Positions 1,075-42,896 of a DNA stretch of 64,000 nucleotides are shown piece after piece. Location: assembly GCF_003933745.1 (NCBI RefSeq), contig NZ_RSEB01000001.1:1051415-1115414 (forward strand). Direction: 5' to 3'. A model generated the notes under the pieces. The model saw nothing but the letters and a program-made list of their open reading frames with translations, ran no database searches and was not told the DNA's origin. Origin of the DNA: Glycomyces terrestris (GTDB taxonomy: Bacteria; Actinomycetota; Actinomycetes; Mycobacteriales; Micromonosporaceae). The stretch's first letter is position 1; each line of letters starts with the position of its first letter. The translations under genes and the position numbers were made by a program.

Positions 1075-1183
1075 GCCCACACGGTAACCCCGGCCACCGA
1101 CACTCCGGCTCCTCCATTTCCGCCGCGGCCGCCGCACGCCACCCCGGCCCCGGCGACCACCCGGTTCCCGCCCACCGGACCAC

Positions 1184-23602: not shown

Positions 23603-23698
23603 ATATGACTCAGCTCACTCCCACCGAGAAACTGTCGGTGGCGACCTATAACCTCAGAGTCACAACAGCATCCGACAACAGCACACTAGGAGGCACCA

Positions 23699-32339: not shown

Positions 32340-33659
32340 ATGAGCACCCCTGTGGAGCATCCGGTCTGGCAGAACTGGTCGGGCACCGAGTCGGCCGAGC
32401 CGGTGCGGACCGTGCGGCCGGCGACCTGCGAGGAGCTGTCGGCGGCGGTGGCGGCGGCGGCCGGGGACGGGCTGCGGGTGAAGGCGGTGGGCGCGGGGCA
32501 CTCGTTCAGCGGGATCGCGGTGCCGGACGGGGTGCGGGTCGACATGGGGGGCCTGGACCAGGTGGTGGCGGTGGACCCGAAGTCGGGGCTGGTGACCGTG
32601 GAGGCGGGGATGCCGCTGTGGCGGTTGAACCAGGTGCTGGACGCGCACGGGCTGGCGCTGGAGAACATGGGCGACATCGACCGGCAGACGATCTCGGGGG
32701 CGATCTCGACGGGGACGCACGGCACGGGCGACCGGTACCGGGGGTTCGCGTGGCAGGTCAAGGGCCTGAAGCTGGTGCTGGCGAGCGGTGAGGCCGTGCA
32801 GTGCACGGAGTTCGAGCGGCCGGAGCTGTTCGCGGCGGCGCGCCTGGGGCTGGGGGCGGTGGGGGTGATCGCGGAGGTCACGCTCCAGTGCGTGCCGGCG
32901 TTCCGGCTGCACGCGGTGGAGCGGCCGGAGCGGCTCGACGGCGTGCTGGAGGGCCTGGACGAGCTGGTGGCCGAGAACGACCACTTCGAGTTCTACTGGT
33001 TCCCGCACACGGACCGGACGTTGACGAAGCGGAACAACCGGCAGGCGATGTCGGAGCCGAGCCGGGCGCCGAGCCGCCTGTCGTACTGGTGGAACGAGGG
33101 GTTCACGGAGAACACGCTGTTCTCGGCGAGCAACCGGGTCGGGGTGCGGTTCCCGGGGCTGGTGCCGCGGTTGAACCGGATCGCGGGCCGGGTGTGGAGC
33201 GCGCGGGAGTACACGGACGTGTCGCACCGGATCTTCACGTCGCCGCGAACGGTGGTGTTCCGGGAGATGGAGTACGCGCTGCCGCGGGAGGCGCTGCCGG
33301 CGGTGCTGCGGGAGCTGCGCGCGATGGTGGAGCGGGAGGGGCACACGGTGTCGTTCCCGGTGGAGGTGCGGTTCGCGGCGGCGGACGACATCTGGCTGTC
33401 GACGGCGCAGGGGCGGCGGACGGCGTACGTGGCGGTGCACCAGTTCCACCGGCACGACCACGTGCCGTACTTCCGGGACTGCGAGGCGGTGTTCGACGCG
33501 GCGGAGGGGCGGCCGCACTGGGGGAAGATGCATTCGCTGGGCGCGGAGCAGCTGTCGCGCCGGTACAAGCACTTCGAGGACTTCCGGCGGGTGCGCGAGG
33601 AGTACGACCCGGAGCGGCGCTTCGCGAACCCGTACCTGGAGCGGGTGCTGGGGGCGTAG
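32340..33659 (+). CDS. FAD-linked D-arabinono-1,4-lactone / L-gulonolactone oxidase family protein
   Basis: This 439-residue flavoenzyme belongs to the VAO fold. WQNWSGTE at the N-terminus, GAGHSFSGIAV with the His that binds FAD covalently in this family, and TISGAISTGTHGTG are the FAD-domain motifs. The C-terminal ALO domain ends GRPHWGKMHSL...FANPYLERVLG, with the HWxK signature complete. It oxidises aldonolactones using oxygen or another acceptor. I chose ATG 32340 because GGAAGGA lies 9 bases upstream and the family starts close to WQNW. An in-frame ATG at 32280 would add 20 non-homologous residues. Confidence 0.88.
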   Translation: MSTPVEHPVWQNWSGTESAEPVRTVRPATCEELSAAVAAAAGDGLRVKAVGAGHSFSGIAVPDGVRVDMGGLDQVVAVDPKSGLVTVEAGMPLWRLNQVLDAHGLALENMGDIDRQTISGAISTGTHGTGDRYRGFAWQVKGLKLVLASGEAVQCTEFERPELFAAARLGLGAVGVIAEVTLQCVPAFRLHAVERPERLDGVLEGLDELVAENDHFEFYWFPHTDRTLTKRNNRQAMSEPSRAPSRLSYWWNEGFTENTLFSASNRVGVRFPGLVPRLNRIAGRVWSAREYTDVSHRIFTSPRTVVFREMEYALPREALPAVLRELRAMVEREGHTVSFPVEVRFAAADDIWLSTAQGRRTAYVAVHQFHRHDHVPYFRDCEAVFDAAEGRPHWGKMHSLGAEQLSRRYKHFEDFRRVREEYDPERRFANPYLERVLGA

Positions 33660-33705
33660 CGCGGGCGTGCGACGGGCTGTCGGTGGAGTGGGCTAGGTTG
33701 TGGCC

Positions 33706-34449
33706 GTGGCTGAGGTGCTCTACCGAAAACTCGATGAACTGACCGACGACGAGGTCTATGCGGCGTACGCGCCGCCGGAGCCGGACTGGCTGCGGGTGAA
33801 CTTCGTGTCCAGTGCCGACGGCGCGGCGACGCTGGGGGGCGTCTCGGGCTCGCTGTCGGGTGACGCGGACAAGCGGGTGTTCAAGGTGCTGCGCGCGCGG
33901 TGCGACGTGCTGCTGACCGGGGCCGAGACGGTCCGCACCGAGCACTACGGGCCGCTGGTGCTCTCCGAGGAGCGGAAGGCGTGGCGGCGGGCGCAGGGCC
34001 TGCCGGAGGTGCCGGTCATGGCGATCGTGACGCGCACGGCGCGGCTCGATCCCGGGGCGGGAATCTTCACCGAGGCACCGCGGCGGCCGATCGTGGTCTG
34101 CCCGGGGGGTCTGCCGGAGGTGCAGCTGGCGCCGTTCCGCGAGGTGGCCGACGTCATCGGCGTCGGCACCGGCGGGGTGGACTTCGCGGCGGCGGTGGCG
34201 GCGCTGCGCGAGCGGGGCCTGCGGCAGATCCTGTGCGAGGGCGGGCCGCACGTGTTCGGCAGCCTGATCGCGGCGGACCTGGTGGACGAGCTGGACCTGA
34301 CGGTGTCGGCGATGCTGGTCGGCGGCGGTCCGTACCGGATCGCGGAGGGCTTCGAGTCCGAGCATGCGAGGCGGCTTCGCCTGCGACACGTCCTCCAAGC
34401 CGGGGACGACCTGATCCTGCGCTACGTGCGAGGATCGAGCGATGAGTGA
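33706..34449 (+). CDS. RibD C-terminal/dihydrofolate reductase-fold pyrimidine reductase family protein
   Basis: This protein of about 247 residues has the RibD_C fold: VNFVSSADGAATLGGVSG (substrate loop), DVLLTGAETVRTEHYGPL (NADPH region) and ILCEGGPHVFGSLIAADLVDEL. It lacks a deaminase domain, so it may be a stand-alone reductase of riboflavin synthesis or a paralogue with another substrate. TAGGTT at 33694-33699 lies 6 bases before the GTG at 33706, so I prefer this leaderless start over GTG 33700. Its stop overlaps the start of the HerA-like gene by 8 bases, so it heads that operon. Confidence 0.78.
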   Translation: MAEVLYRKLDELTDDEVYAAYAPPEPDWLRVNFVSSADGAATLGGVSGSLSGDADKRVFKVLRARCDVLLTGAETVRTEHYGPLVLSEERKAWRRAQGLPEVPVMAIVTRTARLDPGAGIFTEAPRRPIVVCPGGLPEVQLAPFREVADVIGVGTGGVDFAAAVAALRERGLRQILCEGGPHVFGSLIAADLVDELDLTVSAMLVGGGPYRIAEGFESEHARRLRLRHVLQAGDDLILRYVRGSSDE

Positions 34450-36166
34450 TTCGGTGGGCCGCGTGCTGGGCACGGAGGACGCGACGCCCCTGTCGTTCTG
34501 GGTCGGCGTCGGCCCGGAGGCGTATGCGCAGCTCGACGACGTGCTCACCACGGAGCGGCAGGTCCCCGGGGTGGGCACGGTCCGCATCTCCGGGGTGGTC
34601 ACCTCAGTGCGCAGCCGCCACGAGGGCGCCCAGTTCGACTCGGACGTGTTCGACATCGCCGGGGGCCTGCTCCCGGCGCAGGTGCAGGAGGCCGCCGAGG
34701 TCACGGTGACGCGGGTGGAGCCGGAGGTGTTCGTGCCGCCGCGCCCGGGCGCCGAGGTGCAGCGGGCCGCGGGCGAGGACCGCGACCGGGCCCTGTACTT
34801 CGACGGTATGACCCGTCAAGTGCCCCTTGGGTTCTCGCGTGACGGGCAGCCGGTGTTCCTGAACCCGGACTTCCTCGACGGCACGCGGGGCGCGCACGTG
34901 TCGATCTCGGGCATCTCGGGTGTGGCGACGAAGACGTCGTTCGCGACGTGGATGCTGTACTCCCTGCTGCACTCGGGCGCGCTCGGCGCGGAGGCCGCGA
35001 ACACGAAGGCGCTCATCTTCAACGTCAAGGGCGAGGACCTGCTGCTCCTGGACCACGACAACACGAAGATCGACGAGTCGGTGCGCGACTCGTACCGGCG
35101 CCTGGGCATGGAGCCGGGCGCGTTCAAGTCGGTGGAGGTGCTCGCGCCGCCGCGCGAGGGGGACGCGAACGGGATTCCGGACGTCGCGTGCCGGTCCACG
35201 GGCGTCGACGCGTTCTACTGGACGCTCGCGGAGTTCTGCCAGCTGAACCTGCTGCCGTTCGTGTTCGCGGACGGCGACGACGACCGGCAGCAGTACACGA
35301 TGGTGGTCCACCAGGTCGCGGCCCGGCTGCGCAAGGAGGCCCGCCCCAAGGACAACGGTGCGATCAGCGTCGACGGCCGGCTGCTCACGAGCTACCGGGA
35401 CCTGGTCGACCTCATCTGCGAGCGGCTCGCCGACGACGAGACGCGCACCGAGTGGGCGGGGTCGGCGATCGGCCTGGGCACGGTGAACGCGTTCATCCGG
35501 CGGCTCATCGCCTCCGGGCGCGACATCGGCCGCCTCATCCGCGGCGACCTGCCCCCGCGCGGGGCGGCGCTGTCCTCCGACGCGCAGGTCACCGTCGTCG
35601 ACCTGCACAACCTGCCCGACCGGGCGCAGCGGTTCGTCGTCGGCGTGGTGCTGCGCAGCGAGTTCGAGCGCAAGGAGAAGGCCGGCACGGCCCGGCCGCT
35701 CCAGTTCGTGGTGCTCGACGAGCTGAACAAGTACGCGCCGCGCGAGGGCACCAGCCCGATCAAGGACATCCTGCTCGACATCGCCGAGCGCGGCAGGTCG
35801 CTGGGCGTCATCCTCATCGGCGCCCAGCAGACGGCGTCCGAAGTGGAGCGCCGGATCGCGTCGAACTCGGCGATCCGCGTCGTCGGCCGCCTCGACGCGG
35901 CCGAGGCCACCCGGCCCGAGTACGGGTTCCTCACCCAGGCTCAGCGCATGCGCGTGCTCATGGCGAAGCCGGGCACCATGTTCGTGGCCCAGCCCGAGCT
36001 CCCGGTGCCGCTGGTGGTGAACTTCCCGTTCCCCGCCTGGGCCACCCGCCCCGCCGAGGCCGGCGCCGCCCCCGCGACCGCGAGGCCGGGCCGGTCGGTC
36101 TCGGCCACCGCCAGGGTCGACCCCTTCGACCTCGCCGGAGACGACGAAGACGACATTCCGTTCTAG
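34442..36166 (+). CDS. HerA-type hexameric DNA translocase/ATPase (DUF87)
   Basis: This 574-residue protein has the HerA layout: an N-terminal beta-barrel (about 1-110), then a RecA-like FtsK/HerA ATPase. Walker A reads SGISGVATKTS, in which the usual final glycine before the lysine is threonine. Walker B is LQFVVLDELNKYAP, followed by ILIGAQQTASEVERRI with the arginine-finger region and GRLDAAEATRPEYGFL. HerA works with NurA nuclease and Mre11-Rad50 in DNA end resection in archaea. Here sbcD and sbcC (Mre11 and Rad50 homologues) follow in the same operon and a NurA-like gene lies nearby at 41187, which supports the same role. Confidence 0.85.
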   Translation: MSDSVGRVLGTEDATPLSFWVGVGPEAYAQLDDVLTTERQVPGVGTVRISGVVTSVRSRHEGAQFDSDVFDIAGGLLPAQVQEAAEVTVTRVEPEVFVPPRPGAEVQRAAGEDRDRALYFDGMTRQVPLGFSRDGQPVFLNPDFLDGTRGAHVSISGISGVATKTSFATWMLYSLLHSGALGAEAANTKALIFNVKGEDLLLLDHDNTKIDESVRDSYRRLGMEPGAFKSVEVLAPPREGDANGIPDVACRSTGVDAFYWTLAEFCQLNLLPFVFADGDDDRQQYTMVVHQVAARLRKEARPKDNGAISVDGRLLTSYRDLVDLICERLADDETRTEWAGSAIGLGTVNAFIRRLIASGRDIGRLIRGDLPPRGAALSSDAQVTVVDLHNLPDRAQRFVVGVVLRSEFERKEKAGTARPLQFVVLDELNKYAPREGTSPIKDILLDIAERGRSLGVILIGAQQTASEVERRIASNSAIRVVGRLDAAEATRPEYGFLTQAQRMRVLMAKPGTMFVAQPELPVPLVVNFPFPAWATRPAEAGAAPATARPGRSVSATARVDPFDLAGDDEDDIPF

Positions 36167-36198
36167 CTCGGCGGTGCGCCGCCGAGAAGGGGTACACA

Positions 36199-37353
36199 TT
36201 GCGCATCCTCCACACTTCCGACTGGCACGTGGGCGTCACCCTCAAGGGGCGCCCGCGCCTCGACGAGCAGCGCGCGGTCTTCAAGCAGATCGTCGACGTC
36301 GCCAAGGCCGAAGCCGTGGACCTCGTGATCGTCGCCGGGGACCTGTTCGACACCGCCTCGCCGTCGAGCGAGGCGCAGAAGCTGCTCACCGCCGCGCTGT
36401 CGGCGCTGCGCCGCACCGGCGCCGAGGTCGTCGTCATCGCGGGCAACCACGACAACGGCAAGGCCCTCGACGCCCTGCGCGAATGGGCCCACGCCGCCGG
36501 GATCCACCTGCGCGGCAGCCTCGGCAAGGCCGCCGACCACCTGATCACCGGCGAGACCGCCGGCGGGGAGCGGTGGAAGTGCGCGGCCCTGCCGTTCATC
36601 GCGCAGCGCCACGCCGTGCGCGCCGCCGAGCTGTTCGAGCTCGGCGCGGCCGGCGCCGAGGCGAACTACGCCGACCACCTGCGCCGCCTCGTCGCCGCGC
36701 TCACCCAGGACTTCGGGGCCGACACCGTCAACCTGTTCACCGGGCACCTGACCGTGGTCGGCGGCAGGGTCGGCGGCGGCGAGCGCGAGGTCCACACCGT
36801 GGCCGACTACGCCGTGCCGGCCGCGATCTTCCCGCCCACCACTTCGTATGTGGCCCTTGGGCACCTGCACAAGGGCCAGGCGATCACCGGGCCCTGCCCG
36901 ATCCGCTACTCGGGGGCGCCGCTCGCGGTGGACTTCGGCGAGGAGGACCACACGCCCGGCGTCGCGATCGTCGAGGTCAGCCCGGGCATCCCGGCGAAGG
37001 TCCGGACGGTGCCGCTGACGGAGGCGGTGCCGCTCCAGACCGTGCGCGGCAGCCTCGAACAGCTCGCGAAGGCCGAGCCGGACGAGCGAGCCTGGCTGCG
37101 CGTGTTCGTCACCGAGCCCGCCCGCGCGGGCCTGCGGGCCGAGGTCGCCGACCTGTTCCCGCGCGCCGTCCAGATCCACATCGACCCGGTCATGCGCGTC
37201 GACCGCACCGAGCCGCGCGAGCGGCGCTCGGGGCGCAGCCCCGGGGAGCTGTTCGGCGCGTACCTGAGCGAGAACGGCCACGACGACCCGGCCGTCGCGA
37301 AGCTGTTCTCGCAGCTGTACGAAGACACCCAGACCGTGGCCGAGGAGGCCTGA
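36199..37353 (+). CDS. sbcD: Exonuclease SbcCD subunit D (Mre11-type nuclease)
   Basis: SbcD is the metal-dependent phosphoesterase of the SbcCD complex, which opens hairpins and trims DNA ends. The 384-residue protein shows the full set of motifs: ILHTSDWHVG, VIVAGDLFDTA, VVIAGNHDN, LFTGHLTVVG and YVALGHLHKGQ. The TTG start is fixed by homology, because the His of DWH must be near residue 10, and by AGAAGGGG 7 bases upstream. Its stop and the start of sbcC share one base (TGATG). Confidence 0.95.
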   Translation: MRILHTSDWHVGVTLKGRPRLDEQRAVFKQIVDVAKAEAVDLVIVAGDLFDTASPSSEAQKLLTAALSALRRTGAEVVVIAGNHDNGKALDALREWAHAAGIHLRGSLGKAADHLITGETAGGERWKCAALPFIAQRHAVRAAELFELGAAGAEANYADHLRRLVAALTQDFGADTVNLFTGHLTVVGGRVGGGEREVHTVADYAVPAAIFPPTTSYVALGHLHKGQAITGPCPIRYSGAPLAVDFGEEDHTPGVAIVEVSPGIPAKVRTVPLTEAVPLQTVRGSLEQLAKAEPDERAWLRVFVTEPARAGLRAEVADLFPRAVQIHIDPVMRVDRTEPRERRSGRSPGELFGAYLSENGHDDPAVAKLFSQLYEDTQTVAEEA

Positions 37354-39785
37354 TGCGTCCGATCCGGCTGGACCTCAACGGGTTCGCGTCCTACACGGGC
37401 ACCGAGACGTTCGACTTCACCGACGTCGACTTCTTCGCGCTCACCGGGCCCACCGGGGCCGGGAAGTCGACCGTGCTCGACGCGATGTGCTTCGCGCTGT
37501 ACGGGCGCACGCCGCGGTGGCGGGTGAACACCACGCAGAACGCCATCGCGCCGTCCGCGGTGGAGGGACGGGTGCGGCTGGTGTTCGCCGCGGCCGGCAC
37601 CCACTACGTGGCCACGCGCATCCTGCGCCGCGACCGGAACGGCAAGGTCAAGACGACCACGGCCGCGCTGGAGCAGCTGCCGGACGGCGTGGACCCGGCC
37701 GACGACGAGGCGCTGGTGGAGGGCCTGGGCCGGGCGCTCGCGGGCAGTCCGAGCGAGGTCTCGGCCGCGGCCGAGCGGGTCATCGGGCTGCCGTTCGAGC
37801 AGTTCACCAAGTGCGTGCTCCTCCCCCAGGGCGAGTTCGCGGAGTTCCTCCACGCCTCCCCCGCCGACCGGCGCAAGATCCTGGAGAACCTGCTGGGGCA
37901 CAGCGTCTACCGGCGCGTGCAGCAGCTCGCGGGCGCGAAGCGGGACGCGGCGACGACGGCGATGAAGACCCTGGAGGCGCAGCTCGCGCGGGTCCCGGCC
38001 GTCACGGACGCCGAGATCGCGGGCGCCGCCGAGCGCGTCGAGCAGCTGGAGAAGCTCACCGAGCCGGTGCGCGACAAGGCGAACGCCCTCGACGGGCTGG
38101 CCGCGGCCGTCGACTCGGCCCGCCGCCGCCTGGCCGAGGCCGAGGCGAACCTGGCCTCGCTCACGTACATCAAGCGGCCCGACGGGGTCGCGGACATCGC
38201 CGCGCAGGTCGCGGACGCGGCCGCCGCGGTGGCGTCCAAGGCCGCCGAGGTCGAGGCGACCGAGGCCGAGGACGAGCGGCTGCGCGCCGAGCTCGACGGC
38301 CTCGACCTGGGGCTCATCGAGCGCCAGCTCAAGGCGTGGGCCGAGCTCGCCGAGACGCAATCGAAGCTGAAGACCGGCGAGGAGCTCACCGAGGAGCTGC
38401 GCGACCAGTTCGCGGAGGCGAAGGAGCTGGAGGAGGCCGCCGGCGAGGAGGTCGAGATCCAGCACGCGTCCCTCCACAAGGTCCGGATGGCCGAGCTGGC
38501 CGGGACGCTCCGGGCCGGGCTCGCCGTGGGCGACGAGTGCCCCGTCTGCGACCGGCCGGTGGAGACCGTGCCCTCGCACGACCTCTCGGAGACCATGCAG
38601 CAGGCCGAAGAGGCCTCCCGCACGGCGACGGTGGAGTTCCGGGACGCACAGGCCGCCGTGGTCGCGCTCCAGACGAAGCTGGAGAACTACGAGGAGCGGC
38701 TCACCGAGCTGCGCCTGGCCGAGGGGCGCTTGAAGAAGCGCCTCGAAGGGGTGGACGAGCCCGCCGCGCTCCAGGCGCGGCGCTCGTCCTCCGAGGAGGC
38801 GCGCCAGCAGCTCGCGGGCACCAGCGCCGCGCTCAAGGCCGCGCGGCGGGCGCTGCGCGAGGCCGAGAAGCGCCGCCAGACCGCCGACGAGCGCCAGCAG
38901 CGGGCCTGGAAGGAGTTCCAGCACGCCCGCGACCAGGTGGCCGCCCTCGCGCCGCCGCCGGCCGGAGACGACCTGGCCGCGAGCTGGGAGGCGCTCGTGG
39001 ACTGGGCGAAGTCCTCGCTCGAACGGGCCGCGAGCGAGCGCGAGGCCGCCCGCACCGAGCTGACCGGGCTCGACGGCCGCGCCGGCACGCTCCGCGGCGA
39101 ACTGCGGATGGCCTTGGGCGAGTTCGACATCGACGTGCCCCGCACCGGCACCGGCGGCGACTACGTCGCGAGGCACGCGGCCGCGGTGGAGACCGCGAAG
39201 GCCGCCGCCGCGCGGCTGGCCGAGGCGCGCCGCCATCGCGTGGAGCTGGAGGCGGAGACGCGGAAGTTCGCGCACGAGGCCGAGGTCGCGAAAGCCCTCG
39301 CCTCGCATCTGGAGGCGCGGCGGTTCATGGAGTGGCTGCTGTCGGAGGCGCTCGACGAGCTCGTCGAGGGCGCGACGGTGATGCTCAACCGGATCACGGG
39401 CGGCCAGTACGACCTGATCTACCGCGACCAGGACTTCTGGGTGGTGGACCACCACGACGCCGACATGGCGCGCCCGGCGCGGAGCCTGTCGGGCGGCGAG
39501 ACGTTCGCGGCCTCGCTGTCGCTGGCGCTCGCGCTGAGCGACCAGCTGGCGAGCCTGGCGCGGCACGGGGCGAGCCTGGAGTCGATCATCCTGGACGAGG
39601 GCTTCGGCACGCTCGACCCGGAGACGCTCGACGCCGTGGCGACGACCCTGGAGGCGCTGACGCTCTCGGCCGGGCGCACCGTGGGCCTGGTGACGCACGT
39701 GGCGGAGCTGGCCGAGCGGGTGCCGGTGCGGTTCCGGATCACGAAGGACGCCAAGGGTTCCCACGTGGAGAAGACCTGGTCCTGA
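37353..39785 (+). CDS. sbcC: Exonuclease SbcCD subunit C (Rad50-type ATPase)
   Basis: SbcC is the SMC-like ATPase partner of SbcD. The 810-residue protein has Walker A in LTGPTGAGKSTVLDAMCFAL, long coiled coils, a zinc hook DECPVCDRPVE near the middle (about residue 393), the ABC signature SLSGGETFAASLSL and Walker B SIILDEGFGTLD. It is clearly shorter than E. coli SbcC (about 1048), because the coiled-coil arms are reduced, as in other actinobacteria. It is the last gene of the operon ribD-like/herA/sbcD/sbcC. Confidence 0.95.
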   Translation: MRPIRLDLNGFASYTGTETFDFTDVDFFALTGPTGAGKSTVLDAMCFALYGRTPRWRVNTTQNAIAPSAVEGRVRLVFAAAGTHYVATRILRRDRNGKVKTTTAALEQLPDGVDPADDEALVEGLGRALAGSPSEVSAAAERVIGLPFEQFTKCVLLPQGEFAEFLHASPADRRKILENLLGHSVYRRVQQLAGAKRDAATTAMKTLEAQLARVPAVTDAEIAGAAERVEQLEKLTEPVRDKANALDGLAAAVDSARRRLAEAEANLASLTYIKRPDGVADIAAQVADAAAAVASKAAEVEATEAEDERLRAELDGLDLGLIERQLKAWAELAETQSKLKTGEELTEELRDQFAEAKELEEAAGEEVEIQHASLHKVRMAELAGTLRAGLAVGDECPVCDRPVETVPSHDLSETMQQAEEASRTATVEFRDAQAAVVALQTKLENYEERLTELRLAEGRLKKRLEGVDEPAALQARRSSSEEARQQLAGTSAALKAARRALREAEKRRQTADERQQRAWKEFQHARDQVAALAPPPAGDDLAASWEALVDWAKSSLERAASEREAARTELTGLDGRAGTLRGELRMALGEFDIDVPRTGTGGDYVARHAAAVETAKAAAARLAEARRHRVELEAETRKFAHEAEVAKALASHLEARRFMEWLLSEALDELVEGATVMLNRITGGQYDLIYRDQDFWVVDHHDADMARPARSLSGGETFAASLSLALALSDQLASLARHGASLESIILDEGFGTLDPETLDAVATTLEALTLSAGRTVGLVTHVAELAERVPVRFRITKDAKGSHVEKTWS

Positions 39786-39789
39786 CCGG

Positions 39790-39960
39790 TCGGCCTTCGC
39801 TCGGGGTGACCACGTAGTCGACCGAGCAGGACTCGGCGATCTCCTCGCCGGTGCCCGGCCCCTGGCCCATGAAGTCGTGGGAGCGGGAAGCCGACGACGG
39901 TGAAGCCGCGACCAGGGGCCTGTGGCGTCCCGTCTTCCGGTACGCCGGGGTGTCGCTGAT
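39790..39960 (-). pseudogene. Glutathione peroxidase fragment, frameshifted and truncated
   Basis: Read on the minus strand, one frame gives GRGFTVVGFP and the next frame gives HDFMGQGPGTGEEIAESCSV then DYVVT. Together they match the glutathione peroxidase core, GFxVxGFPxNDFMGQEPGTxEEIAEFCS. The two pieces are joined by 7 bases where 6 are expected, so there is a +1 frameshift exactly at the conserved Pro-Cys/Ser-Asn. The upstream part (SDTPAY) is a weak trace of the earlier TPQY motif. The C-terminal half, with the WNFxKF motif, is gone, and the remnant ends at the sbcC stop codon. No start codon or ribosome site fits. Confidence 0.65.
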
Positions 39961-40256
39961 CGGGCCGGCGTCGCGCCCCGCCGTGCACCCGGTCCGTCCG
40001 ATTTGCACCATACGCACCGCCCCCTACGGGCGGCTCGCGAAGTTGACGCGCCTGCCTGTGAGGACGATCGCAGTGACCCCTCGCGATCCGGCCCCGAACT
40101 GGCCTTCTTCCCGCCCACGCGGAGGAGTAAGTTCGATCCGTTGGCTTCGTTACGGCGCAACGGACGTCATCCGCTCGCGCAATACTGACGCGCGCCTATC
40201 GGTGAATTGTCCCGTTATGTCGCATCCCACATGAGCTCGGTTCACTTGCGGTCAAC

Positions 40257-40270
40257 CTTGAATGTTCAAG
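40257..40270. promoter_or_regulatory. Palindrome before the carbonic anhydrase gene
   Basis: CTTGAA-TG-TTCAAG is a perfect 6-base inverted repeat ending 13 bases before the ATG at 40284. It is a candidate operator or a small leader hairpin. Confidence 0.4.
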
Positions 40271-40283
40271 TACCTCTGAGAAC

Positions 40284-41045
40284 ATGAGCACTTTGCACAT
40301 TCGCGGCGATCGCCGCACGCTGATCACCGGGGCCGGCACCATCGGCCTCGGCGCCACCGCCGCCCTCACCCTCGGCGCCACCCCCGCCGCAGCCGCCCCC
40401 GCGACCGCGCAGACGGCCTCCCTCAACCTCCACGACGCCGACACCGGCGAGGAGGTCTGGGAAGCCCTCCTGGACGGCAACGAGCGCTGGGCCTGCGGCA
40501 GGGCCACCCGCCCCCACACCAGCGTCCGGTGGCGCAAGACCCTCGTCGCGGGCCAGCAGCCCCGCGCCGCGGTGTTCGGCTGCGTCGACTCCCGCGTCTC
40601 CCCCGAACTCGTCTTCGACACCGGCGTCGGCGACATCATGGTCACCCGCACCGCCGGCAACGTCCTCAACCCCCTTGTCGCCGAGTCCGTCTCGTACGGC
40701 CCGGCCGCCCTGGCGTCCCCCCTGCTGGTCGTCCTCGGCCACCAGAAGTGCGGCGCGGTCACCGCCGCCCACGCGGCGCTCTCCGCGGCCGACGAAGGCC
40801 ACGAGCCCGAGGAGCACGAGTACGCGCTCCCCGAGACCGTGGAAGCGCTCCGCGCCGCCTACGAGGCGAGCAAGGGCGCGCCCGGGGACCCGATCGCGGC
40901 GATGACCGAGGCGAACGTCCGCCTCGCCATGGCCGCCCTCGCCGAGCACCCGAACCTCGCCACCCTCGTCGCCGACGGCGAACTGACGATCGTCGGCGCC
41001 GTCTACTCGCTCGAGACCGGTCTCGTCACCGAGATCCAGGAGTAG
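40284..41045 (+). CDS. Exported beta-class carbonic anhydrase
   Basis: This 253-residue enzyme hydrates carbon dioxide. The zinc ligands are in FGCVDSRVSPEL (CxDxR, about residues 99-101) and GHQKCGAV (HxxC). The N-terminus carries a twin-arginine signal (GDRRTLITGAG, then a hydrophobic Ala/Leu stretch ending PAAAAPATA), so the folded zinc enzyme is exported. Beta-class enzymes are usually cytoplasmic, so this is one of the Tat-exported actinobacterial types. The ribosome site is weak (GAGAAC). A hairpin follows the stop codon. It lies between sbcC and the NurA-like gene but has its own control region. Confidence 0.9.
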   Translation: MSTLHIRGDRRTLITGAGTIGLGATAALTLGATPAAAAPATAQTASLNLHDADTGEEVWEALLDGNERWACGRATRPHTSVRWRKTLVAGQQPRAAVFGCVDSRVSPELVFDTGVGDIMVTRTAGNVLNPLVAESVSYGPAALASPLLVVLGHQKCGAVTAAHAALSAADEGHEPEEHEYALPETVEALRAAYEASKGAPGDPIAAMTEANVRLAMAALAEHPNLATLVADGELTIVGAVYSLETGLVTEIQE

Positions 41046-41053
41046 AGCGCACT

Positions 41054-41077
41054 CGGGCCCGTCTCGGGACGGGCCCG
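41054..41077 (+). terminator. Terminator after the carbonic anhydrase
   Basis: A perfect 10-base-pair stem (41054-41063 with 41068-41077) starts 8 bases after the stop codon. Confidence 0.75.
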
Positions 41078-41186
41078 GGGCCCGGGCCGGTCGCCGGGGG
41101 GCGGCCGGCCCGGGCCTCCATGGGCCGCATGCACCTCGACGGCGGGAAGTAGGCTGGGCCGCAATCGACCTGAAAGCAGGTGCGCC

Positions 41187-42104
41187 TTGCAGATCACCGT
41201 CGACGCGTGGGACCCGTCCTTCGCCGACAACCCCGAGTCGCCCTCGCGCGGCAACACGGCGATCGTGGAGCCCGGCGTGGAGCTCGAACCGGCCGACTGG
41301 CGGCCCGTGGACGCGCCCGCGAGCGGGCCGCGCCGCATCGTCGTGGTCGACGGGGTGCGCCGCGTCGACGCGCGGGTGGAGCTGCTGGAGGACGGCGAGC
41401 GCTGGCCGGGCGTGTGCGTCTCCTGGGCCGCCGGCGCGGTCGCCTGCGACCTCGACGGGCACGTGTCCGCGGTCGCCGAGGCGGCCGTGGAGCGGGGCCT
41501 GTTCGCCGCGGTCGACCCCGGCGCCGACTTCGGGCGCTACCCGTTCCGCAAGGTCGAGTCCGCCGACGCGGGCGAGCTCATCGGCGCCGCCCAGGCGGCC
41601 ATGGCCGAGCTGGAGGCGAAGGTGGCGTCCACGGTCGCCATGGACGCGGAGCTGTCGGTCCTCGACGGGCCGCTGCGCGGGCGCGACCGGCTCTCGAACG
41701 CGGTGGGCTACATCAAGAGCCACCAGCGCGCGTATCTGCCGAAGACGCTGAACGCGGTCGTGGAGCAGCTGCGGCCCGGGCAGCGGACCCCGGTGTTCCA
41801 CCTGACGTCGGGCTGGCCGCGCTACACGTGGTACCTGCGCCTGCCGGGCACGTCCTCGCGCGGCTGGGCCGGGATCGCCCGCATCGAGGCCGCGAACGAC
41901 CTGAGCGAGGAGGCCGCGATCGGCCTCGCCGACGCCACGGCCGCGGCCCTGCCGCCGCTGGGCTCGGCCGCGCACAAGGACGCCCGCGCCCCGCAGAACC
42001 TCACCCCGATCGCCGGCCTCGAGCGGCGCCTGAAGCGGATGCTCGGCGACCCGCGGCTGCTGCTGCGCTCGGTCCGCGCCGCCTCGATGGAGACCGGCGC
42101 CTGA
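41187..42104 (+). CDS. NurA-like nuclease, HerA partner
   Basis: This 305-residue protein matches the actinobacterial NurA-domain family. The first active-site motif is RRIVVVDGVRRVDARVEL (about residues 50-67), the second conserved aspartate is in ELSVLDGPLRGR, and VGYIKSHQRAYLP with VFHLTSG and TWYLRLPG complete the RNase H-like fold. NurA is the 5'-3' nuclease that HerA drives in archaeal end resection. A HerA homologue and SbcCD lie 2-7 kb upstream on the same strand. The TTG start is set by homology, with AAAGCAGG as ribosome site and TAGGCT (41150-41155) as -10 box. Confidence 0.78.
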   Translation: MQITVDAWDPSFADNPESPSRGNTAIVEPGVELEPADWRPVDAPASGPRRIVVVDGVRRVDARVELLEDGERWPGVCVSWAAGAVACDLDGHVSAVAEAAVERGLFAAVDPGADFGRYPFRKVESADAGELIGAAQAAMAELEAKVASTVAMDAELSVLDGPLRGRDRLSNAVGYIKSHQRAYLPKTLNAVVEQLRPGQRTPVFHLTSGWPRYTWYLRLPGTSSRGWAGIARIEAANDLSEEAAIGLADATAAALPPLGSAAHKDARAPQNLTPIAGLERRLKRMLGDPRLLLRSVRAASMETGA

Positions 42105-42110
42105 GACGAC

Positions 42111-42144
42111 GGGAGGCCCCGGCGCGAGCGCGCCGGGGCCTCCC
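42111..42144. terminator. Bidirectional hairpin after the NurA-like gene
   Basis: A perfect 14-base-pair stem (42111-42124 with 42131-42144) lies between the convergent NurA-like gene and the secreted lytic protein. Confidence 0.85.
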
Positions 42145-42191
42145 AGGGTCAGCGAACTCCGGGTTCGCACTGGATTCAGATTAGGCGGCCG

Positions 42192-42896
42192 TCAGTACCA
42201 GCCGTTGGACTCGCTGTGCGACCAGGCGCCGCACGGGCTGCCGTAGCGGCCCTCGATGTAGTCCAGGCCCCAGGCGATCTGGGTGGCCGGGTTGGTCTCC
42301 CAGTCGTCGCCGTGCGAGGCCATCTTGTCGCCGGGGAGCGACTGCGGGATGCCGTACGCGCCCGAGCCCTCGTTGTAGGCGGTCTCGTTCCAGCCGGACT
42401 CGCGGTTCCACAGGTCCACCAGGCACTGGAACTCGCCCATGTCCCAGCCGGCGTCGAGGGTCATGGTGCAGCCGATGGCCTGGTTGCCGGAGTAGTCCGA
42501 GCACTCGGCCGAGATGTCGACGCTCGGTCCGGAGGACGCCTCGGAGGTCTCCTCCTCGACCGGTTCCTCCTCGGCGGGGACCTCGGCCGGGTCGGACTGC
42601 GCGGTCTCGGGAGCGGCCTCCGCCTTCTCGGGGAGGATGCTCTCCATCCGGTCCACGTCGTCCCACTGCCGGTCGGTCGAGCCGGCGTCGGCGACGATGT
42701 CCTGGGCGAGCTGCTCCTGGGGCGTGGGGTCGTCGGTCGCGATGATCGCGGCGCTCGCGCTGCTCGCCGAGCCGACTGCAAGCAGTACGGCCGCCGAGGA
42801 CACGAACACGCGAGTGCGCACGGCGCGGCGCAGGCCGCCGGGGCGGCGCTCGTCGGCGCGGTGCTTGGCGCGGGTCGTCTTCATGCGGGTAAACAT
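42192..42896 (-). CDS. Secreted lytic-transglycosylase-like protein (aggregation-promoting factor C-terminal type)
   Basis: This protein of about 234 residues has an N-terminal basic region and a membrane/signal segment (VFVSSAAVLLAVGSASSASA). An acidic Glu/Pro linker (about 85-135) leads to a C-terminal lysozyme-like domain: CLVDLWNRESGWNETAYN, SGAYGIPQSLPGDKMASHG, NPATQIAWGLDYIEGRYG, GAWSHSESNGWY. The Glu of NRESGW is the likely catalytic acid. It probably cuts or remodels peptidoglycan outside the cell. I chose ATG 42896, because TAGGGT (42905-42910) stands 8 bases before it and there is no Shine-Dalgarno site. ATG 42884 is possible. The 295 bases upstream hold only its promoter and the next gene's terminator. 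I looked for a c-di-AMP riboswitch there and found none. Confidence 0.82.
   Translation of the reverse strand: MFTRMKTTRAKHRADERRPGGLRRAVRTRVFVSSAAVLLAVGSASSASAAIIATDDPTPQEQLAQDIVADAGSTDRQWDDVDRMESILPEKAEAAPETAQSDPAEVPAEEEPVEEETSEASSGPSVDISAECSDYSGNQAIGCTMTLDAGWDMGEFQCLVDLWNRESGWNETAYNEGSGAYGIPQSLPGDKMASHGDDWETNPATQIAWGLDYIEGRYGSPCGAWSHSESNGWY

Follow-up and report, generated by a model that had tools for sequence, protein, structure and literature searches.

A complete and conserved HerA-NurA-SbcCD gene set of bacterial type, apparently damage-controlled in Glycomyces

Gene content of the locus

We analyzed a 64,000-nucleotide stretch of the Glycomyces terrestris genome (5.24 Mb; assembly GCF_003933745.1, contig NZ_RSEB01000001.1, positions 1,051,415 to 1,115,414 of the forward strand), hereafter the window, which encodes a HerA translocase, a predicted NurA nuclease and both subunits of SbcCD, the homologues of Mre11 and Rad50. 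As a preliminary description of this DNA had stated, the run is headed by a ribD-like reductase gene with a RibD_C domain (PF01872; window positions 33700..34449, plus strand, where the GTG at 33706 may be the true start), which overlaps herA by 8 bp. The herA gene (34442..36166, +) encodes a bacterial-type HerA double-stranded DNA translocase of 574 aa and is followed after 32 bp by sbcD (36199..37353, +; TTG start, 384 aa), which in turn shares a single base with sbcC (37353..39785, +; 810 aa) in the string TGATG, so that the unbroken succession of a HerA-type ATPase gene, sbcD and sbcC described earlier was confirmed. The fourth gene, nurA (41187..42104, +; TTG start, 305 aa), lies 1.4 kb 3' of sbcC on the same strand, where a NurA-like nuclease had been proposed, and its predicted product matched chain 7f6d_H of the Deinococcus radiodurans NurA-HerA structure with an E-value (E) of 9.1e-19. 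The closest named HerA loci, among the best 80 of 567 confirmed loci, are nine Glycomyces records with 91-98% identity.

Identity and catalytic residues of the four proteins

Using phmmer, we found that the window HerA matched D. radiodurans HerA (drHerA; 7f6d_B) at E 1.2e-139 and 470 bits, whereas every other solved HerA gave E above 0.01. The N-terminal half of the protein aligned with drHerA across residues 2-281. The Walker A residues K164 and T165 and the Walker B residues D426 and E427 were kept in all 107 rows of the HerA alignment, and the arginines corresponding to those of the drHerA pore were nearly invariant (R434 in 104 and R491 in 102 of the 107 rows). For NurA, fold comparison revealed the RNase H-like NurA fold, on which the preliminary description had made its assignment of the protein starting at 41187 depend. 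In an alignment of 99 rows, D55 was present in 98 and E143, D160, K177 and R267 in every row; D55, K177 and R267 correspond to D53, K201 and R309 of D. radiodurans NurA (drNurA), positions at which drNurA mutants are nuclease-dead.

The family models named in the preliminary description performed unevenly. DUF87 missed HerA, and no other Pfam model matched it in our scan, while the Pfam NurA model PF09376 gave a borderline 17.8 bits against a cut-off of 21 and did not match the window NurA when the whole genome was searched. The same model matched 5 of 20 aligned NurA members at E<=0.01 and 27 of the 120 listed NurA homologues, some of which are called NurA by NCBI or UniRef.

SbcD (scanned from 36217) scored 174 bits against TIGR00619, above the cut-off of 77.65, and also matched PF00149; both phosphoesterase motifs, GNHD and GHxH, were present in 102 of 102 rows. 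In the case of SbcC, AAA_23 and SbcC_Walker_B exceeded their Pfam cut-offs, and TIGR00618 reached 255 bits, under its cut-off of 478.5. The window protein carries a zinc-hook-like CPVC, and CxxC was found in 88 of 89 SbcC rows.

Distribution in Actinomycetota and beyond

We sampled 346 Actinomycetota genomes evenly, although they are not mutually independent, and applied a HerA threshold of E 2.3e-54 or better, leaving out of the count six weak matches (G071, G111, G145, G167, G177 and G332; 8e-43 to 5e-31). HerA was detected in 72 and NurA in 70 of these genomes, and never NurA without HerA; in the two HerA genomes lacking a NurA match, the cluster is interrupted by a contig end. SbcD was found in 70 of the 72. 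Among the 61 nearest genomes, 40 have HerA and NurA together, including all 22 members of the genus. At E<=1e-30, HerA was absent from all 10 f8 and all 6 f18 genomes listed. The set is widespread in Actinomycetota, and its HerA and NurA have relatives of the Deinococcus/bacterial type, so that a recent archaeal import is not needed to account for it; the term archaeal-type used in the preliminary description was not supported.

HerA matches at E<=1e-10 were rare on mobile elements: 72,556 plasmid records yielded 6, of which one is an 11.9-Mb replicon, and 50,697 phage records yielded 2. As separate observations, one genome (G204) contains two nurA-herA-sbcD-sbcC sets (L271 and L089), one with a HerA of ~30% identity, and in a relative from the same family (G022:C1:1864550-1865508) the NurA match falls in two pieces, perhaps through a frameshift or an insertion.

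Gene order and shared history

We mapped the four genes by tblastn in 113 stretches, 109 of which contain HerA. The order herA-sbcD-sbcC-nurA (order A) was found in 55 of these 109 loci, nurA preceded herA (order B) in 44, of which 37 display all four genes, and the order could not be called in 10. All four genes run in the same direction in 92 of the 109, in line with the earlier expectation that relatives would keep nurA near herA-sbcDC. The 80 best named loci of the 567 confirmed (67 from Micromonosporaceae, 12 from Glycomycetaceae, one unplaced) show the full order-A set in 68 cases; a NurA match is absent from the other 12, in 11 of which the stretch ends <=3.9 kb past herA. In 73 of the same 80, a RibD-like gene lies upstream of herA, at -5 to 7788 bp.

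Both orders also occur on plasmid records. Order A is present on a linear plasmid of Streptomyces sp. BB1-1-1 and on the 11.9-Mb record of Nonomuraea gerenzanensis, and order B on plasmids of Sphaerospermopsis (Cyanobacteriota) and Candidatus Chlorohelix (Chloroflexota), with NurA detected by profile in all four. On the Streptomyces plasmid (451 kb; L279), herA-sbcD-sbcC-nurA adjoins genes for an ImmA/IrrE peptidase, TIGR02680, TIGR02678 and DUF2397, and an ImmA/IrrE gene is also found directly upstream of the set on the Chlorohelix plasmid. Four loci encode a HerA of only ~30% identity; three of them (L271, L273 and L274) have NurA, SbcD and SbcC alongside in order B, and the fourth (L272) has HerA without the other three genes.

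Unrooted trees of the four proteins were built with 4 of the 21 same-genus loci, excluding short and over-long open reading frames (ORFs). The order label required one change on each of the HerA, NurA and SbcC trees, against shuffle means of 26.7, about 25.7 and 23.2, and the branch separating the orders had Shimodaira-Hasegawa-like approximate likelihood ratio (SH-aLRT) support of 87, 100 and 100, respectively. On the SbcD tree, order A again forms one side of a branch (96), and order B takes three changes because two other SbcDs (L259 and L267) fall among its members; we found no HerA within the 20-kb stretches around these two. Of 20 solo SbcDs, so classed either for want of a HerA match in the genome or as second copies (L259 and L267 being checked in their 20-kb stretches), 18 make up one group distinct from the HerA-linked SbcD. 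Judging from the order labels and branches and from this grouping, the four proteins appear to have moved together for the most part and to have a largely shared history. Order B is the arrangement that occurs in other phyla and among diverged forms, and for that reason it is probably the older of the two, as far as unrooted trees allow.

A damage-type promoter motif upstream of the run

A motif of the RecA-NDp/PafBC promoter type, CTGTCGGTG-N8-TAGGTT (33677..33699, +), directly precedes ribD, and the GTG at 33706 begins 6 nt past it. It deviates at one position from a literature consensus that we take to be that of RecA-NDp/PafBC. An identical motif type lies 7 nt ahead of the ATG of recA in the same genome. 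Allowing <=2 mismatches, 17 of 21 congeners carry the motif ahead of ribD (shuffle mean, 0.2); it was found before herA, sbcD, sbcC or nurA in none of the 21 and before the upstream oxidase gene in none of 20. We also considered a LexA (SOS) box and discarded it: the window had 65 matches (<=2 mismatches) against 56 expected, and the nearest one upstream (33482-33495) lies inside the oxidase gene.

Genome-wide, 24 sites were found with <=1 mismatch, compared with 3 when the pattern was reversed. Besides the site in the window ahead of ribD, these comprise 19 whose downstream sequence was scanned with Pfam and four (L288, L289, L293 and L303) whose downstream genes were left out of the scan. 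The scans returned RecA, RecO, uracil-DNA glycosylase, DNA polymerase A, a DEAD helicase, an RNase_T exonuclease, an SMC/AAA_23 ATPase, an HHH protein and a proteasomal ATPase, together with AhpC, GTP cyclohydrolase I and a pentapeptide protein; 7 of the 19 gave no match. A RecA-NDp/PafBC-type regulon can largely be read from this genome (24 sites, L283-L306). The window has two further sites with one mismatch, at 23632-23654 (+) and 1081-1103 (-), and the downstream ORFs that were scanned gave no Pfam match.

As for a possible regulator, the genome has seven WYL matches, of which two, at C10:788701 and 789650, are adjacent and lie ~10 kb from the motif heading the proteasomal ATPase gene; this pair may correspond to PafB and PafC. 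According to a review, the PafBC motif closely resembles the RecA-NDp motif, and RecA, RecBCD and AdnAB are among the members of the mycobacterial regulon (PMC8223512).

Coexistence with AdnAB-like proteins

Contig 11 holds two ORFs, of 1038 and 1027 aa, that overlap and both carry UvrD helicase and PDDEXK_1 domains. No family model names either ORF AdnA or AdnB; the domain content fits AdnAB, next to which the preliminary description had suspected the HerA-NurA route to operate. AdnB-like proteins (234 bits or more) were present in 45 of 72 HerA genomes as opposed to 44 of the 274 others, and HerA and AdnB-like proteins therefore tend to coexist; as the genomes of the sample are not independent, we attach no weight to the P-value of this contrast. 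We accordingly rejected the idea that HerA-NurA replaces AdnAB.

Comparison with known systems

The Glycomyces proteins resemble D. radiodurans NurA-HerA (PDB 7f6d, PMC9960219) in full-length HerA homology with a shared GISGVATKTS Walker A segment, in the NurA fold and catalytic D/K/R residues, and in a W at position 8 of both NurAs, outside the aligned region. They differ in that Glycomyces adds the AdnAB-like pair and that the available text of the D. radiodurans study mentions neither an sbcDC link (sbcC, 0 occurrences) nor a damage promoter. According to that 2023 study, bacterial NurA-HerA occurs in few bacteria such as Deinococcus-Thermus and has an uncertain role (PMC9960219), and a 2015 paper left open whether SbcCD is tied to bacterial NurA-HerA (PMC4663267). 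In Oceanithermus profundus, SbcD and SbcC lie downstream of a bacterial HerA (hepA-sbcD-sbcC), an arrangement that the authors liken to the archaeal system (PMC5448004). There they describe a recruitment in that organism, whereas here we find a phylum-wide set in two gene orders. The herA-mre11-rad50-nurA operon of Sulfolobus also clusters the four functions, and its order as listed matches order A; its sequences are distant, and all four genes are reported to be essential in S. islandicus (PMC4351679, PMC2288612).

Among the open-licence papers listed for HerA and NurA together with Actinomycetota or actinobacteria, no title or abstract opening describes the present set. Iyer et al. reportedly surveyed HerA in 2004, and that survey may already mention part of these findings. 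Archaea are not known to have AdnAB or PafBC, and no SbcCD partner is known for TdpAB. The match to TdpAB (PDB 8wet, 8wfd) was weaker than that to bacterial NurAs.

Proposed function and alternative explanations

Computed here were the gene identities and catalytic residues, the linkage and co-occurrence of the four genes, their largely shared history, the promoter motif and the AdnAB-like pair. With these data, we consider it likely that the bacterial-type HerA, NurA, SbcD and SbcC form one DNA-end processing machine that is induced by damage via a PafBC/RecA-NDp-type promoter and acts beside AdnAB; co-transcription, damage induction, complex formation and resection are steps that we infer. 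SbcCD would bind and trim blocked, hairpin or protein-bound ends, after which the HerA hexamer would load and, consuming ATP, pump duplex DNA into the NurA dimer. NurA would nick the 5' strand processively, and the remaining 3' tail would pass to RecA with the help of RecFOR, recO having the same promoter motif. In this species, nurA may run from a promoter of its own. By homology, linkage and promoter, double-strand-break resection is the most likely function, and the genetics of D. radiodurans caution against certainty (PMC9960219).

Several observations weigh against this proposal. In D. radiodurans, deletion of nurA or herA reportedly improves tolerance to mitomycin C and UV (PMC9960219). 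At one HerA locus (L182), ~6 kb of downstream sequence contains none of the other three genes, and two others (L275 and L276, off-tree) have an SbcD-SbcC pair that scored high with the linked-type profiles, with neither HerA nor NurA nearby. The herA and sbcD matches are >400 bp apart, by up to 14 kb, in 17 of the 101 loci that have both. Four of five f30 loci show this wide spacing, as do both f45 loci, and a third f45 genome has HerA on one contig and sbcDC-nurA on another. Concerning the promoter, the consensus is one taken from the literature and the Glycomyces regulon is a putative one. For loci from outside the genus, the counts were low: 0 of 12 ribD and 1 of 14 herA starts in other f1 loci have the motif, as do 1 of 28 herA starts in the remaining order-A or uncalled loci, 8 of 40 nurA starts in order-B loci (three of the eight being near-copies) and 2 of 38 sbcD starts in order-B loci, the two being loci in which herA is distant from sbcD. 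Since the motif is mostly absent outside the genus, the claim of a damage promoter rests on Glycomyces.

A broader scenario appears possible to us, and somewhat less than probable: Actinomycetota would have a second, damage-inducible resection machine beside AdnAB, with HerA-NurA-SbcCD acting as one complex; the nurA-herA-sbcD-sbcC operon would be the old bacterial form, shared with plasmids of Cyanobacteriota and Chloroflexota and with diverged lineages; and nurA would have shifted a single time to the operon's end.

Among the alternatives, the set could be a genome-defence or anti-plasmid device in which HerA-NurA and an SMC-like SbcCD degrade the ends of invading DNA, as is described for HerA-type systems such as TdpAB. 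The PADLOC matches of SbcC are not weak, but matches to SMC-like defence models are to be expected, given that the ATPase domains are shared. We regard a defence role as unlikely because HerA and NurA are so regularly present in near relatives (40 of 61 genomes and the entire genus), because the tree and the ribD neighbour look inherited rather than patchy, because plasmid and phage records so seldom contain HerA and because the promoter motif is of the DNA-repair type.

It is also rather improbable that HerA-NurA and SbcCD are mere neighbours, with SbcCD repairing hairpins and ends, HerA-NurA in a minor or regulatory role and AdnAB carrying out resection. Such an arrangement would agree with the increased tolerance of the D. 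radiodurans deletion strains to some damage (PMC9960219), with the AdnAB-like pair, with the wide herA-sbcD spacing in 17 of 101 loci and with the decoupling of nurA in this species. Yet the linkage persists in three of the four loci with highly diverged HerA, the HerA-linked SbcD is distinct from 18 of the 20 other SbcDs, and the D. radiodurans effects may not carry over. Finally, although Sulfolobus has these four genes in one operon (PMC4351679, PMC2288612), recent import of an archaeal resection operon into this actinomycete is most improbable on similarity and distribution (in trees without archaea), since the window HerA is far closer to drHerA than to other solved HerAs, the set occurs widely across the phylum and its order changes once, and its GC content equals that of the window.

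HerA of this type is found in about a fifth of sampled Actinomycetota (72/346), nearly always with NurA and SbcD and mostly in clusters, and the set is complete, conserved and, in Glycomyces, by its promoter motif, apparently damage-controlled. Glycomyces, Micromonospora and Salinispora offer a culturable setting for testing bacterial HerA-NurA-SbcCD end resection and how work is shared with AdnAB, and the damage-type motif and the recurrence across the phylum make this bacterial version of the archaeal end-repair set easy to test.

Insertions between sbcC and nurA

In the window, a beta-carbonic anhydrase gene (PF00484; 40284..41045, +) lies between sbcC and nurA, as it does in 11 of 21 congeners. 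In four of the 21, an 11-bp gap separates the sbcC match from the nurA match. In a genus tree built from four proteins, with very long outgroup branches and a weakly supported root, the carbonic-anhydrase label needs three changes and all carriers fall within one 14-row group, a pattern best explained by a single gain within the genus and two losses. The 11-bp gaps and the three changes support the preliminary description's view of a once continuous, later split cluster; nurA is secondarily separated from the run by insertion of the carbonic anhydrase gene.

The fossil gene suspected between sbcC and nurA is also real. It is a 106-bp remnant (39805..39910, -) with 92.5% identity to the glutathione peroxidase locus of the same genome, which is intact on contig 10, and probably represents a recent partial duplication. 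The Pfam and GSHPx models missed the remnant, and direct comparison with the intact locus recovered it.

Upstream of nurA, an alignment block containing a -10-like TAnnnT element (41150..41155, +) is kept in most Glycomyces that have an sbcC-nurA gap. Our searches for sigma-70-type promoters and intrinsic terminators at 39700-42300 returned none, and we tentatively read the block as a candidate separate nurA promoter. Elsewhere in Glycomyces (L133, L137, L149 and L151), the sbcC-nurA junction contains varied extra ORFs, as if it were an insertion hot spot; in L133, these are, as judged by eye, a nucleotidyltransferase-like ORF and an HTH ORF.

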